Shown here: piece by piece, positions 3-6,500 of the stretch | Layout: the number at the start of each line of letters is the position of its first letter | Position numbering within the stretch: position 1 is the first letter of the stretch | Assembly (NCBI GenBank): GCA_003165595.1 | Contig: PLWQ01000031.1 | Location: 1 to 64,000, forward strand | Origin: Fibrobacterota bacterium | Lineage (GTDB): Bacteria > Fibrobacterota > Chitinivibrionia > Chitinivibrionales > FEN-1185 | Length of the DNA: 64,000 nt | Direction: 5' to 3' | The notes under the pieces: model-generated | Told to the model about the DNA's origin: nothing | Database searches by the model: none | Seen by the model: only the letters and a program-made list of their open reading frames with translations | Position numbers and translations under genes: made by a program

Positions 3-968
3 GGGCCTTTATCTATAATATCAGCTCAGCCAAGCCTGACCTATTACTATTACGTAGAAGCGGTAGATGACAATGCTTCTTACATGTCCACTTTGGCCGC
101 CATTGCGAATGTGTCCGCGCAATTGGCACAACCCTTATCCCCAACACTTACTCCTGGAACAAACGCAATTACCGTCTCATGGGTTTACATCAGCAGCGAA
201 GACGGGATGAAAATCTACAGGTCAACCAATTTTGGTCAGTATTACTTAGTAAACGCCGTCACGAGTCCCTATACCTCATCATGGGTCGACTATGGCGTGG
301 TTCCCGGTAATTCGTACTCATACGAAATCACCGGCTACAACGGGTGTGGGGAAAGTCAGGCGAGTATGCCGTCAATCGCCTTGACTATCCCGGCATTGCC
401 GGATCTGGTTGTCGACTCCCTTTCGGTGATTGCGCGGAAGGACAGTCTGATCGGGAGATTCATCGTTGCGAATCGCGGCAGTAACACGGCAATTCTGCCT
501 TTTAGAGTTGGCGTCACCTGCAACAGCGTTATGGTCGCGGACTGGCAAACAACCGGAAACCTTCTCAACGGCTGGTACCTCACATTTAACTTCCGATACA
601 AGACAGCGTCTATGAAGAACGCACTCTTGGTTTGTGCAGACTATACCCAAGTAATCAATGAGACCAGTGAACTGAATAATTGTCTCACCGATACCATTTA
701 CGCCCTGCCGGTCATAAATGGGATTCACGCGTCAAGCCTCTTGCAAAGACCCGAAATAACATACAAAGAAAACGAAAAGACTTTGAAGATTGTCTGTAAG
801 GGCGATTTCTCGGCAGACCTGTTCGACTCGAAAGGTCGGGCGATCCTCTCAAAGCCCGGTGCAAACGAACAAACCATTGTCTTGCGCCAGGTTTCCGTCG
901 GTACTTACTTACTGAGGGTAAACTCAAACTTGTGCGGGGTGTCATCGAAACTACTGGTAGTAAGGTGA
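3..968 (+). CDS. Exported FN3/CARDB surface protein, 3' part of gene
   Basis: The reading frame is open from the left edge, so the gene starts outside the window and about 321 residues are visible. The first residues (LTYYYYVEAVDD) are the end of a fibronectin type III repeat. A second FN3 repeat follows (YSYEITGYNGCGES), then a CARDB-like segment (PDLVVDSLSV... FIVANRGSNTA). The last 70 residues form a small beta domain ending LLRVNSNLCGVSSKLLVVR, which resembles the Por-secretion (type IX) C-terminal sorting module, so export to the cell surface is likely. No catalytic domain is visible in this part. The only in-frame ATG (position 84) lies inside an FN3 repeat and is not a credible start. 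Confidence 0.75.
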   Translation, partial: GPLSIISAQPSLTYYYYVEAVDDNASYMSTLAAIANVSAQLAQPLSPTLTPGTNAITVSWVYISSEDGMKIYRSTNFGQYYLVNAVTSPYTSSWVDYGVVPGNSYSYEITGYNGCGESQASMPSIALTIPALPDLVVDSLSVIARKDSLIGRFIVANRGSNTAILPFRVGVTCNSVMVADWQTTGNLLNGWYLTFNFRYKTASMKNALLVCADYTQVINETSELNNCLTDTIYALPVINGIHASSLLQRPEITYKENEKTLKIVCKGDFSADLFDSKGRAILSKPGANEQTIVLRQVSVGTYLLRVNSNLCGVSSKLLVVR

Positions 969-1112
969 AAATCGATCCGATCTGCAAATGCAACTGGTCC
1001 TTTGGGATAACGGCCACGAGGGAGAAAAGGGTGCAAAGGCGGTTAAGGCTTTCAGAGGGATATGCGGGACATTGAGGCAATGACTTTCCCAAAACAGATT
1101 CGGTGAATTGCA

Positions 1113-1892
1113 ATGCACAGCATCGTTGATAATTGCTTCTGTAAAGAGGAAAACGACAATATTTGTAATATTTGTCTGAAGAATGTGCCCGCTTTGGAAA
1201 AGGACCACGTACCGCCAAAGTGCACCGGTAATTCACGGAACTACTGTTTTCAAAATTTCTTTCCACTGACGCCGGAAGAGTCCTTCAAGATTGTCACAGA
1301 GGGTATAGGATTCAAGACAATTTGTCCATGGTGCAATAGGCAACTTTCGAGGTATGACAGGACCCTATCAAAGGTGTACAAGACAATTCAACAATCGCGA
1401 CGAGATGAGAGATATGTTCAGTTGAACATTCAGCCTTACGATTTTGTCCGAGGCGTATTCGGACATTTTCTATCTGCCAAGGACACTCACACAACCTCAA
1501 GAATGGATGAATGGTTGCGAGACGCTGTGATTGGCCAAGATCATGAAATAAATCCCGAACTCAACATGTATGTGACGCATTATCCGCATGCTCAAGTGAG
1601 AGTAATCAGGGATTTGGCCTTTGCTGTCCCCACCAAAGAAGGGCTTTTCTTCACCTATAACTGCATCAAAATATGGCCTCTAGCCATTTTGTTGAGCGAT
1701 TATCCATTCCTCAAGCAGGAAGAATGCAATTGGAAGAGGTACTTCTCGCTAAAAAGGGGATTCAACGCAACAGTTACTTTCGACAAAAGTGTTGTTAACA
1801 GCGTAGATTGGCCTGAGGGGGACACAGCAATACCGAGACTTCTTGGGGGCTACGCGTGTAAGTCAATTATCGGCTGGCCTTCGGTTATTTAA
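1113..1892 (+). CDS. HNH-like zinc-binding protein, function unknown
   Basis: This 259-aa protein has the residue pattern of a treble-clef HNH domain in its first 80 residues: C18-x2-C21, then D31-H32 in EKDHVPPK, then C71-x2-C74 followed by N75. The order C-x2-C, D-H, C-x2-C-N is that of HNH endonucleases. The rest (residues 90-259) is not recognised and has no membrane segment or signal peptide. It stands alone between a surface-protein gene and a helicase remnant, and the region is richer in A+T than the core genes downstream, which suggests an accessory gene. The ATG at 1113 has only a weak ribosome-binding site (GGTGA). A DNase role, for example in defence, is plausible but is inference from the motif. 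Confidence 0.6.
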   Translation: MHSIVDNCFCKEENDNICNICLKNVPALEKDHVPPKCTGNSRNYCFQNFFPLTPEESFKIVTEGIGFKTICPWCNRQLSRYDRTLSKVYKTIQQSRRDERYVQLNIQPYDFVRGVFGHFLSAKDTHTTSRMDEWLRDAVIGQDHEINPELNMYVTHYPHAQVRVIRDLAFAVPTKEGLFFTYNCIKIWPLAILLSDYPFLKQEECNWKRYFSLKRGFNATVTFDKSVVNSVDWPEGDTAIPRLLGGYACKSIIGWPSVI

Positions 1893-2031
1893 TTAGTGTG
1901 ATGTTAACCCAGGTCCAGCAATTATTCGGGAGCCAATGTGCCTCACGCAGAGTAGTGCCGCAATTGAGCCGTAATAGTGCAACCGGCGTAGTTCAGACGA
2001 TCAACATGAAAGAAACAATGACAACTAACCT

Positions 2032-2232
2032 ATGACCCCAAACTCCCTCACCCCCCTCCAACTCTCCGCCGTCTCTCACTCCTCCGGCCCTCTGCTCCTC
2101 ATTGCCGGTCCGGGTGCGGGCAAGACCCGCGTGATAATCGAAAAATGCGTTCAACGATTCGCGGCTGCAGACATCTCAGATGTCCGGGCCGATCACCCTG
2201 GAAAAGAGATTCTATTCCATGCACCTCACTAA
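2032..2232 (+). pseudogene. Truncated duplicate of the UvrD helicase 5' end
   Basis: The first 122 bases (2032-2153) are nearly identical to 2861-2982, the start of the full-length helicase gene, with about six substitutions of which five are synonymous. The copy includes the start codon and the complete Walker A motif (GPGAGKT). Homology stops abruptly after the codons for EKCV, and the frame then runs through unrelated sequence to a stop at 2232. Only 66 residues would be made, lacking every other helicase motif. The similarity begins exactly at the ATG, while the upstream sequences of the two copies differ. It is best read as the remnant of a diverged paralogue or of an insertion that duplicated the gene start. 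Confidence 0.75.
2170..2184. repeat. 15-bp near-perfect palindrome at the end of the helicase duplication
   Basis: GACATCT-C-AGATGTC has 7-bp arms around one central base. It lies 17 bases past the point where the duplicated helicase sequence stops, and so close to the left junction of the inserted sequence. It could be part of the junction or an operator for the following gene; nothing else supports either role. Confidence 0.4.
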
Positions 2233-2854: not shown

Positions 2855-5749
2855 ATGCCAATGACCCAAAATTCCCTCACCCCCCTCCAGCTCTCCGCCG
2901 TCTCTCACTCCTCCGGCCCTCTGCTCCTCATTGCCGGTCCCGGAGCAGGCAAGACCCGCGTGATAATCGAAAAATGCGTTCATCTTATTAACGAATGTCA
3001 CATTGCCCCGGAAAACCTTCTTGTCACCACGTTCACGAACAAAGCCACTCTCGAATTGTACGACCGTTTGTACAATTCGCTCGGCCCCATGGCGCAGAAG
3101 ATCACGGTTTCGACCATACATTCGTTTTGCAAGTCGCTGCTTTCTTCTTTTCCCGGCCACAATCCGCTGGGCGCTCATTTCGAGGTGCTCGATGGGGAAG
3201 AGCAGTTCCTTTTTGTGTACGACAACTTGAAAGCGCTCGGGCTTTCAAGTTTTCCCAAGAAGCGTCTTGCGGAGTTTATTCACGACGTGATTTCATTCTT
3301 CAATCTTTGCACGGAGGAGTGTGTTGACCCGGGGAAGCTTGCCGTAGTTGCGAACCTGAACCCAAAAGAGCTTCTTGGCCTCAAGGTTTGTTCGGACGAG
3401 GCGGTCGACGAATATTGCTCGGTGGCGGAAGCCTATGGCGAGTACAGGGACCTGTTGAAAAGCGAGCGGCTCGTGGACTTTGCCTTGCTTCAGGAGACCG
3501 CATACGCGATGGTGCGCGACAATGCGGAGGTGCGCGACGAGCTACGGCGGAGGTACAAGTACGTTCTTATTGACGAATACCAAGACACCAACCGTTTGCA
3601 GGTTTTGTTGTTTAAGGAGATCACGGCGCCAGAGCACAATATTTGCGCTGTGGGTGACGACGACCAGTCGATCTACGGGTTCCGCGGAGCTAGCGTGCAT
3701 AGCTTCCGGAACTTCACGGAAGATTTCCCGAATGCCAAGGAAATCCCGCTTGCGGCGAATTTCCGCTCAACCCCCGTGATTGTCGATGCAACATCCAGTC
3801 TCATCGAGCACAATGCGCCCGACCGCAAACCCAAGAAACTCGAATCCGCCCGCAATGATTATTCGGCAACGCCGGTCAATTGTCACGAGCCCACTGCGCC
3901 CAAAGAGGCCCAAACCGTTATCGACGCATTGTACTCGTGGAAGAACAAGGGCATCATTTCGTCTTGGAACGACGTTGCGATTCTATTGCGAAGCGTGAGG
4001 AGTCATGCAGGCCCGTACATTGAGGAATTGCAAAAGAGCGAGATACCTTATGTTGCATTCGGGCAATGCACATTCTTCGAGCGCCAGGACATGGGCGAGC
4101 TGCGAGACGTTCTCCGGTTCTGCGGAAACAAGAGCAAATGCCCGGTTTCCGGCATCCGGCAGCCGCTATTCGACTTTGCAAACGAAACACTGGAGGTGAT
4201 TGCCGGGCTCAAGGACAATCCGGCTGTTTGGAACAATGCGGATGCAATCGACGGCCTTACCATACCGGACAAAGACTTGCCGGTTCTCAAACGCCTGGCT
4301 CGTATCAGAAAAGGTGCGCTTGACGGAGAGTACAAGCATCATATGCTTGGCCTGTTTTACGACGTTCTGGATTGCAGCGGCTATCTCAAAAGGATTCTCA
4401 CGCAATGCTCCAAACCCGGCGGCGATTCCGCCGAATCCGCGCTGTTCAACCTCGCAGTGTTTTCCGGTCTCATCAGCCGGTTCCAGAAGAGAGTTCGCAG
4501 CTCCAATCTCTACAAGCTCAACGAGTACCTCTATTTTATCAAGGAGAGCATTGCCGAAGCCGGGGTTGCCCGGCCCGGCGCGGAAGCGGTGCGCATCATG
4601 ACCGTGCACCAGGCCAAAGGCCTGGAATTTCCGGTTGTGGTAATCGGCGCGGCCATGGAGCAGCGGTTCCCTGTGGGTTTTAGAAGGCCCAAATACCCGG
4701 TGCCCGCGAGCCTGCGGATTTCCGGAAACGTCGAAGACGAACCAACGCATCGCCGCGACGAGCGCAGGCTTTTCTATGTAGCCATGACCCGAGCCCGGGA
4801 TTTGCTGGTTATCGGCTCAGCGGACAAGGTCAATGTGCGGGGAGGCGGGCCGTCAAAATTCATACAGGAAATCAAGCAGGGCGCCATTGTAAAGTCGATT
4901 GGCGACATAAAGGAAAAACCGCCGCGGAACCGGCAGAAAGCCAAGGCGCCGGACCGCAAGCGGCTTTCGTATTCCGGCCTTCACACGTACGTCTTGTGTC
5001 CGCTTCAGTACAAGCTGATTTACGAATGCGGCTTTAGCGTGCCGCAGGTGTATTGGGCATACTTTGGCGGGGCAGTGCACAACGTGCTCGAACATATCCA
5101 CAAGCTGGCGTTGCACGGCAGCATTCTTACGCCCGGCGACCTGCCCGAACTCTGGAAGACCATGTGGAAGCCGCCCCAATCCTGGGATAACGATCGCAAG
5201 GAAACCATGGGTAACACGGGTCTTTGGTATCTCGATCGCTACATCAAGAATTATGGACATCGCCTCAGCACCGTGTACTGGGTGGAAGAGCAAATCGAAA
5301 TTCCTGTTCCGGAAACCGACGTGCTTCTCACGGGCAGGCTCGATCTTGCGTGCAAGGTGAGCGGCGGCATCCAGATCATTGACTTCAAGATCCGCAAGCG
5401 GATCGGCCTTGAGGTGATGCGCGAGGACCTGCAGGTGCAGGTGTATGCGCTCGCCGCGAAACAGGCGAGGGGCGAAACCGTAAGCGGCATCACCCTGCAT
5501 CTTTTGGGCGAAAAGCCGGGCAACGAGGTACTCAATTTTGCGTGGGATAATTCCATTGAGAAAGACGTTGATTTGACTATACGGAAAGCCTGCCGGGGCA
5601 TTCAAGACGGCAAATTCGACGCGCGGCCCGGTATTCATTGCAGGTTCTGTGATTTCCGATCGTTATGCACATTCTCAGCGGAGCCGGAAAGAAAAAAGGA
5701 GCAAGACGATGAAATCGCCCTTGGTACGGAAGCTCAAAAGATCGGTTGA
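2855..5749 (+). CDS. UvrD/PcrA-type superfamily 1 helicase with C-terminal Cas4/AddB-like nuclease
   Basis: This 964-aa protein is an ATP-dependent DNA helicase-nuclease. The helicase motifs appear in order: Walker A GPGAGKT (about residue 30), Walker B VLIDEYQDTN (about 235), VGDDDQSIYGFRG, LAANFRST, MTVHQAKGLEFPVVV and FYVAMTRARD. From about residue 710 there is a PD-(D/E)XK nuclease: LSYSGLHTYVLCPLQYK, GGAVHNVLE, LTGRLDLA, IIDFK and QVYALAA. The early Cys and the final cluster CRFCDFRSLC would hold a 4Fe-4S cluster as in Cas4 and AddB. All key residues are present. GAGG (2846-2849) supports ATG 2855; ATG 2861 is the alternative. The next gene overlaps the 3' end by 41 bases. Repair is the default role, but such helicases also occur in phage-defence systems. 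Confidence 0.85.
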   Translation: MPMTQNSLTPLQLSAVSHSSGPLLLIAGPGAGKTRVIIEKCVHLINECHIAPENLLVTTFTNKATLELYDRLYNSLGPMAQKITVSTIHSFCKSLLSSFPGHNPLGAHFEVLDGEEQFLFVYDNLKALGLSSFPKKRLAEFIHDVISFFNLCTEECVDPGKLAVVANLNPKELLGLKVCSDEAVDEYCSVAEAYGEYRDLLKSERLVDFALLQETAYAMVRDNAEVRDELRRRYKYVLIDEYQDTNRLQVLLFKEITAPEHNICAVGDDDQSIYGFRGASVHSFRNFTEDFPNAKEIPLAANFRSTPVIVDATSSLIEHNAPDRKPKKLESARNDYSATPVNCHEPTAPKEAQTVIDALYSWKNKGIISSWNDVAILLRSVRSHAGPYIEELQKSEIPYVAFGQCTFFERQDMGELRDVLRFCGNKSKCPVSGIRQPLFDFANETLEVIAGLKDNPAVWNNADAIDGLTIPDKDLPVLKRLARIRKGALDGEYKHHMLGLFYDVLDCSGYLKRILTQCSKPGGDSAESALFNLAVFSGLISRFQKRVRSSNLYKLNEYLYFIKESIAEAGVARPGAEAVRIMTVHQAKGLEFPVVVIGAAMEQRFPVGFRRPKYPVPASLRISGNVEDEPTHRRDERRLFYVAMTRARDLLVIGSADKVNVRGGGPSKFIQEIKQGAIVKSIGDIKEKPPRNRQKAKAPDRKRLSYSGLHTYVLCPLQYKLIYECGFSVPQVYWAYFGGAVHNVLEHIHKLALHGSILTPGDLPELWKTMWKPPQSWDNDRKETMGNTGLWYLDRYIKNYGHRLSTVYWVEEQIEIPVPETDVLLTGRLDLACKVSGGIQIIDFKIRKRIGLEVMREDLQVQVYALAAKQARGETVSGITLHLLGEKPGNEVLNFAWDNSIEKDVDLTIRKACRGIQDGKFDARPGIHCRFCDFRSLCTFSAEPERKKEQDDEIALGTEAQKIG

Positions 5750-6500
5750 CCGTTTCTTTCGGATGCCGGTTGTTGACGCCTGCATCATGGCAATCATCTT
5801 CGCCAGCGTGGTGCTCATTCTCATCGAGTTCTACCACGGCCTCGATGCGCAGAAGCTGAAAATCATAATGCTTGTGAGCGACGTGATTACGGGAGTTTTC
5901 ATCGTCGAACTGTCTCTTCGCTGGTTTGCCGCTCCTTCGACAAAGGCGCATTGGAGGGAATTCTGGATCGATTGGATAAGCGTGATTCCGGTCTTTCGCC
6001 CTATGCGTATCTTGCGGTTCTTTAGGGCGCTTCGGCTTCTCAGGCTTTTCAGGTTCGGGCTTCTTGCGCACCGGTTCGCGCGCACGTTCGAGCCGCGTCA
6101 ATACGGAGACGCGCTGCGCGAGGAAATTGCGCATTACACCGGCAAGCACTCGGAGTTCATTCTGCTGGTCCCGGATCTGTTCGACATGCTGTCGAGATTG
6201 CTGGAAGACGGCCGCGTGGAAAGAACCGGCCGCCAAAAGGTGTGCCAGGCAATCGCTTACTTCATCACGCCCTTCGACGTCTTGCCCGAAGAAGTTTACG
6301 GAGTGGAAGGGTATATTGACCAGTGTTACGTGGCCCTGCACGTTCTTTCCAGTCTCAAAGCCGAGCTTCCGGATTTTGTTGTCGACGAGGCATGGGAAGG
6401 CGAGGGAACGTTTGCCGAAGTGGCGGCCATGCTGCCGGCATTGCGGGCGAAATTACAGCCGGAGAACGTTGATAAGGTGCATCGGTATTTGGGGCTTTAG
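5709..6500 (+). CDS. Pore-less voltage-sensor domain fused to DUF1232
   Basis: The start is ATG 5709, seven bases after AAAGGAG (5695-5701), giving 263 aa; the longer frame from 5649 lacks such a site. Four membrane segments form an ion-channel-like voltage sensor: S1 at 24-41, S2 at 52-74 with E67, S3 at 84-97 with D88, and S4 at 97-116. S4 has arginine at every third position (R97, R100, R103, R106, R109, R112, R115). No S5-S6 pore follows. Residues 175-211 instead resemble DUF1232 (AIAYFITPFDVLPEEVYG... YIDQ). The gene overlaps the helicase by 41 bases, so the two are probably translated together. Its function is unknown; a membrane-potential sensor or a proton-channel-like protein are possibilities. 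Confidence 0.75.
   Translation: MKSPLVRKLKRSVDRFFRMPVVDACIMAIIFASVVLILIEFYHGLDAQKLKIIMLVSDVITGVFIVELSLRWFAAPSTKAHWREFWIDWISVIPVFRPMRILRFFRALRLLRLFRFGLLAHRFARTFEPRQYGDALREEIAHYTGKHSEFILLVPDLFDMLSRLLEDGRVERTGRQKVCQAIAYFITPFDVLPEEVYGVEGYIDQCYVALHVLSSLKAELPDFVVDEAWEGEGTFAEVAAMLPALRAKLQPENVDKVHRYLGL

Follow-up and report, generated by a model that had tools for sequence, protein, structure and literature searches.

A pore-less voltage-sensor domain joined to DUF1232 behind a UvrD-like helicase-nuclease gene in a Fibrobacterota genome

What might a bacterium do with a voltage-sensor domain (VSD) that has no ion-conducting pore and is joined to a domain of the DUF1232 family in its place? The question is raised by one gene, P0001, in a 64,000-nucleotide stretch of a Fibrobacterota genome (contig PLWQ01000031.1, positions 1 to 64,000; hereafter the window). 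P0001 lies on the forward strand at 5709–6500, from an ATG at 5709 to the stop at 6500, and encodes 263 amino acids, with a VSD (S1–S4) in residues 20–126 (5766–6086) and a DUF1232 domain of the PEE-YG subfamily in residues 130–263 (6096–6497). It begins 41 nt inside the 3′ end of a gene on the same strand (2855–5749) for a 964-amino-acid UvrD/PcrA-like superfamily 1 (SF1) helicase with a C-terminal PD-(D/E)XK nuclease domain, recognized by Pfam matches and by its identity to a UvrD homologue described below. A Shine-Dalgarno-like AAGGAG (5696–5701, forward strand) precedes the P0001 start codon by 7 nt. GC contents at the three codon positions are approximately 0.54/0.38/0.70 in the VSD half and 0.67/0.35/0.68 in the DUF1232 half, and both halves share the pattern of the upstream UvrD gene (approximately 0.58/0.39/0.68). 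Judged from its sequence, P0001 is very probably a genuine open reading frame (ORF) for a pore-less VSD-DUF1232 protein.

The N-terminal half matches the Pfam family Ion_trans (PF00520) with an E-value of 1e-10 and 41.7 bits (cut-off 25) over profile positions 3–108 of 241, which cover S1–S4 only. The S4 segment, MRILRFFRALRLLRLFRF, contains no Trp and carries seven arginines at every third position: R97, R100, R103, R106, R109, R112 and R115 (5997–6053, forward strand). These residues, like the acidic counter-charges E67 in S2 and D88 in S3, stand where an earlier annotation made from the DNA letters alone (the sequence-only reading) had placed them. An R-x-x-R run of seven appeared in 3 of 200,000 shuffles of residues 1–135, and the longest such run in any other window ORF of at least 150 amino acids is four. 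S2 also contains F64 and R71, and we take F64, E67, R71 and D88 to occupy the positions of the Kv-channel charge-transfer centre. In an alignment with prokaryotic channels, D88, R109 and R115 fall in invariant columns, while R71, P94 and R112 are nearly invariant.

AlphaFold2, run on a 12-row alignment, gave a model of P0001 with a confidence (pLDDT) of 81 and a minimum around residues 110–130. The model predicts an amphipathic pre-helix (residues 4–17), four helices corresponding to S1–S4 (20–42, 47–74, 78–91 and 101–126) and an all-helical C-terminal domain. The sequence-only reading had called the domain a true voltage sensor and had staked this on a predicted four-helix bundle; the bundle was obtained and, with the S1–S4 Pfam match and the full charge set, the claim holds at the level of sequence and model. 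A Foldseek search of the model against PDB listed voltage-gated Na, Ca and K channels at all 50 ranks, with every E-value above 1e-3 and with only the VSD half able to match. In a tree of 42 VSDs, whose long branches make it indicative only, P0001 fell together with Kv-type channels from its own order (support 0.81) and, at a looser level (0.74), with two channels with atypical filters, while Nav-type channels and Hv1 were placed elsewhere. By sequence, P0001 thus contains a complete Kv-type voltage-sensor domain, from which we infer the sensing of voltage itself.

Neither the Pfam match nor the AlphaFold model includes an S5–S6 pore, and the ORF ends after DUF1232, as the sequence-only reading had noted. 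Nor did we find a pore domain at this position in homologues, since the DUF1232 homologues of P0001 carry none. A scan of 81 genomes from the phylum gave 26 Ion_trans matches, and one of 138 genomes from the phylum that includes a Bacteroidota metagenome-assembled genome (MAG) described below gave approximately 125; in these two sets P0001 is the sole uninterrupted match that covers S1–S4 and ends there. Two short matches that were inspected proved to be decaying Kv genes; in one a stop codon separates S2 from S3, and in the other the pore region is lost. A 2023 review based on database searches reported that every known prokaryotic VSD is accompanied by a pore and that no Hv channel is known from prokaryotes (PMC10377628), which agrees with the earlier remark that a stand-alone bacterial VSD is unusual. 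At the sequence level, P0001 is a counter-example to this reported absence.

How does such a protein compare with known voltage sensors? The comparison with proton channels drawn by the sequence-only reading did not survive. Hv1 is likewise a pore-less VSD, but it has three S4 arginines, the selectivity residue Asp112 and an S4 Trp, a conserved Hv1 feature (PMC10377628), whereas P0001 has seven S4 arginines, Ser33 aligned to D112 of Hv1 (PDB 5oqk, 3wkv) and no S4 Trp; we therefore rejected Hv1 as an identity. The voltage-sensing phosphatases (VSPs; Ci-VSP/TPTE) share with P0001 the lack of a pore and an S1–S4 unit whose S4 leads into a cytosolic domain. Their cytosolic domain is a PTEN-like phosphatase, whereas the bacterial P0001 has DUF1232, no PTEN-like Pfam match and, on reading the sequence, no Cys-X5-Arg, so that a VSP was also rejected. 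Prokaryotic Kv-type six-transmembrane (6TM) channels (PF00520) share the VSD sequence and fold and are the nearest VSDs in the tree, but P0001 has DUF1232 in place of their S5, filter and S6, and by Pfam match and model it is not a Kv or Nav channel with an S5-P-S6 pore. By analogy with VSPs, its design appears to be a variant of the known kind in which a VSD drives a cytosolic domain, the new elements being the bacterial setting and the DUF1232 partner. Separately, a genome of the same genus (G001) encodes a 6TM channel with AIAGDAYP where TVGYGD would be expected (L102); DUF1232 and this UvrD are lacking there.

The assignment of the C-terminal half to DUF1232 stood as well: Pfam PF06803 matches with an E-value of 2.4e-6 and 27.6 bits (28.8 in a second scan) against a curated cut-off of 23, with the core at 6249–6320. 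From about residue 130 to its end, P0001 aligns with the full length of stand-alone proteins of 140–160 amino acids from sources that include the Methanothermobacter plasmid pFV1, a Spirochaetales MAG and a Bacteroidota MAG, and all 14 aligned subfamily proteins score as DUF1232. This subfamily of the YkvA/DUF1232 family has P-x-D-x-x-P-E instead of the usual P-D, and P0001 has the complete domain, some 130 residues long and bearing the P-D-PE-YG-GYID and W motifs. The other members of the subfamily are soluble, with no strong transmembrane helix in any of the 15 compared, and nearly all have an Asp pair after G-Y-I; P0001 adds the N-terminal VSD and keeps the first Asp (D204) but has Q205 as the second residue. 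A 272-amino-acid DUF1232 protein in another genome (G235) has a non-membrane N-terminus. AlphaFold2 modelled the DUF1232 domain with a pLDDT of 90; no relative of it was found in PDB by sequence or by fold, and BFVD held no viral relative of the whole P0001. Our literature search found no paper that ties DUF1232 to voltage or defence, and none that joins "voltage sensor domain" with "anti-phage". In line with a link to defence, the DUF1232 protein of pFV1 (WP_010889849.1; L004, 786–1226) lies between an NgoPII restriction-modification gene and a Mig DNA glycosylase gene.

The sequence-only reading was right about the VSD, the missing pore, DUF1232 and the rarity of a stand-alone bacterial VSD, whereas DUF1232 is at most a putative effector; besides the proton-channel comparison, it went wrong in overlooking the UvrD operon partner. 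The closest UvrD relative that we found (33–35% identity over the full length) is in a Bacteroidota MAG (L036), where it is directly followed by a soluble DUF1232 protein of the same subfamily and then by matches to DrmA, DrmB and DrmC. In a Spirochaetales MAG (L035), the last codons of a very similar UvrD are followed by a soluble DUF1232 protein of this subfamily, BrxHI and PDC-S68. The Bacteroidota MAG holds two more DUF1232 copies, one behind an 845-amino-acid gene at the far end of the same DISARM-like locus and one behind the end of an SF1 helicase gene. Five plasmid records contain distant full-length UvrD homologues (25–27% identity); in all four plasmid loci examined, the genes downstream include a DNA methyltransferase and another large one, in most cases a restriction-type helicase, but no DUF1232, with model matches to N6_N4_Mtase, ResIII and TnsA-like proteins where neighbours were scanned. 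Because its homologues stand in DISARM-like and BrxHI loci and in methyltransferase/ResIII operons, this UvrD helicase family is, on the evidence of gene neighbourhoods, defence-associated, and its pairing with DUF1232 recurs. The window's pair differs from these DISARM-like and restriction-modification-associated modules in that neither DrmA/DrmB nor a methyltransferase was seen beside it and in that its DUF1232 bears a VSD. Since a free soluble DUF1232 gene occupies the same place behind UvrD elsewhere, the VSD reads as a membrane module added to a defence-associated partner protein.

Three observations on these genomes stand by themselves. The plasmids of Blastomonas, Nitrosomonas and Spirosoma (L115, L116, L117 and L118) show a recurrent, restriction-modification-like series of UvrD-PD-(D/E)XK, N6/N4 methyltransferase and ResIII helicase with a TnsA-like end. 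One Bacteroidota MAG (G169; contigs C98, C346 and C260) has five matches to this DUF1232 subfamily, of which one is a fragment and several have helicase or defence-type genes next to them. At L036, a 6TM channel with the atypical filter TVAGSSD (838–1599, reverse strand) lies divergently 138 nt before the UvrD-DUF1232-DrmABC cluster. A VSD gene thus neighbours the same pair that in the window bears a fused VSD, which could be coincidence.

Does the fusion exist elsewhere? Approximately 960 genomes were screened with P0001 or with a DUF1232 profile. P0001 revealed no second VSD-DUF1232 fusion in a set of 168 genomes from its phylum. The profile likewise revealed none, either in the phylum to which the Bacteroidota MAG belongs (396 genomes) and the order of this MAG (123) or in the phylum to which the Spirochaetales MAG belongs (393). 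Plasmids and phages (tblastn) and viral contigs contained no such fusion, and a pattern search of genome contigs, made with stricter patterns than those of its pilot runs, returned two DUF1232 loci, both without a VSD. The search alignment held two made-up variant rows that served only to widen the pattern and from which no evidence was drawn; in the joint VSD and DUF1232 alignment some VSD tails are still misplaced.

In the phylum's remaining 167 genomes, neither UvrD nor P0001 had a relative of this kind, which suggests horizontal gain of the pair, as expected for mobile defence genes. The locus also bears a trace of past change: a 125-nt partial copy of the UvrD gene at 2029–2153 (forward strand) is 94% identical to the start of the gene (2858–2982), is cut off and is followed by an unrelated ORF. 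It is either what remains of a second UvrD copy that had diverged or a site of recombination. Between this copy and the UvrD gene, a 206-amino-acid ORF in the UvrD direction (2180–2800) had no Pfam, PHROG, PADLOC or NCBIfam match; the "VAIDIGFAS" near its start presumably recalls an RNase H-like fold, though this is an impression only. Further upstream, a 259-amino-acid ORF (1113–1892) has a weak HNH_5 match below the cut-off and matches phrog_21495, whose function is unassigned. Two known systems were considered for the window's pair and rejected: DISARM, as no DrmA helicase or DrmB was found among the nearby ORFs scanned, and Gabija, whose GajB models in PADLOC match the UvrD helicase region, but no GajA-like gene was present among the scanned neighbours and this UvrD has a PD-(D/E)XK domain.

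Starting from the complete sensor, the missing pore, the overlap of the two genes and the defence neighbourhoods of the homologues, we propose that P0001 is a membrane-anchored, voltage-sensing form of the DUF1232 partner of UvrD. At rest, the negative-inside potential would hold S4 down; a drop in potential, as might follow phage DNA injection or membrane damage, would let S4 move outward and pull on the directly joined DUF1232, as S4 does with the phosphatase in VSPs. The shifted DUF1232 could then alter how the UvrD helicase-nuclease binds or works at the membrane and so lead to an attack on incoming DNA. We rank this chain, taken as a whole, above its rivals and regard it as plausible though short of probable. 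That phage-caused depolarization in particular is the trigger seems rather unlikely to us, and we are equally doubtful of the most far-reaching version, a voltage-gated immune sensor in which a true S4 sensor without a channel would switch on an intracellular DNA-attacking defence enzyme at phage entry.

Several results weigh against the proposal. The chief weakness is that the fusion is alone in the genomes screened; since there is only one, it offers no measure of selection and no proof that the VSD has been kept functional. At the position of Q205, almost every relative has the second Asp. The model confidence is lowest (pLDDT 55–59) from S4 to the DUF1232 junction, which is where coupling would occur. 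Many members of this DUF1232 subfamily are found in ordinary chromosomal settings, so DUF1232 alone is not a defence marker. The DUF1232 proteins of the Spirochaetales and Bacteroidota MAGs are 92% identical and count as one lineage, so that the UvrD-DUF1232 pairing rests on two independent lineages. Finally, neither DrmA/DrmB nor a methyltransferase nor any other core defence gene turned up in the scanned ORFs near the pair in the window.

Could the VSD be a mere membrane anchor for DUF1232, and with it UvrD, with a voltage-sensing ability that was inherited from a Kv channel and goes unused? Membrane tethering is common among DUF1232 proteins (of 23 canonical members from the phylum, 15 have a transmembrane-like helix outside the motif) and may suffice on its own, and the grouping with Kv-type 6TM channels from this bacterium's order makes the VSD look taken from them. 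One helix would be enough for an anchor, yet P0001 has kept all seven S4 arginines together with the F/E/D charge-transfer residues, and we consider this explanation a real possibility, although not a likely one. An effector modelled on RexA/RexB appears improbable. Here UvrD would sense foreign DNA and, through DUF1232, make the VSD leaky, depolarizing the cell in an abortive infection. In RexA/RexB, a sensor that binds DNA is coupled to an effector in the membrane (PMC12894663), and VSDs can conduct through a gating pore once S4 arginines are replaced (PMC13095418); RexAB, like the window's pair, consists of two genes for a DNA-acting and a membrane protein, a working likeness only, with no sequence relation shown. 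P0001, however, lacks the features of a conducting VSD, its gapless arginine array favours a sealed gating pore, and a UvrD with its own nuclease domain would need no second killing device.

It is also quite improbable that recombination or misassembly joined a Kv gene fragment in frame to DUF1232 by chance, leaving a functionless or decaying product. The occurrence in one genome only, the rearrangement recorded by the 125-nt UvrD remnant and the decaying Kv VSD fragments of Bacteroidota all fit such an origin, but P0001 is an intact ORF whose two halves share one codon-position bias; it has a good ribosome-binding site, overlaps UvrD and keeps a complete residue set, whereas the decaying fragments carry stops or deletions. 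A role independent of UvrD in membrane-potential or ion homeostasis, as a VSD-only regulator like TMEM266, a non-conducting VSD protein (PMC13095418), accords with relatives of this DUF1232 subfamily in non-defence settings but is very improbable given the tight UvrD overlap and the UvrD-DUF1232 pair that recurs in other phyla.

Overall, these results position the UvrD-PD-(D/E)XK and DUF1232 genes as an overlooked pair in DISARM- and BREX-type loci, and the pairing places DUF1232, which had no solved relative in our searches, in a functional context. By its layout P0001 itself is a bacterial counterpart of the VSPs, and its tie to a defence-associated helicase-nuclease makes it testable whether cells may read membrane potential to trigger immunity.

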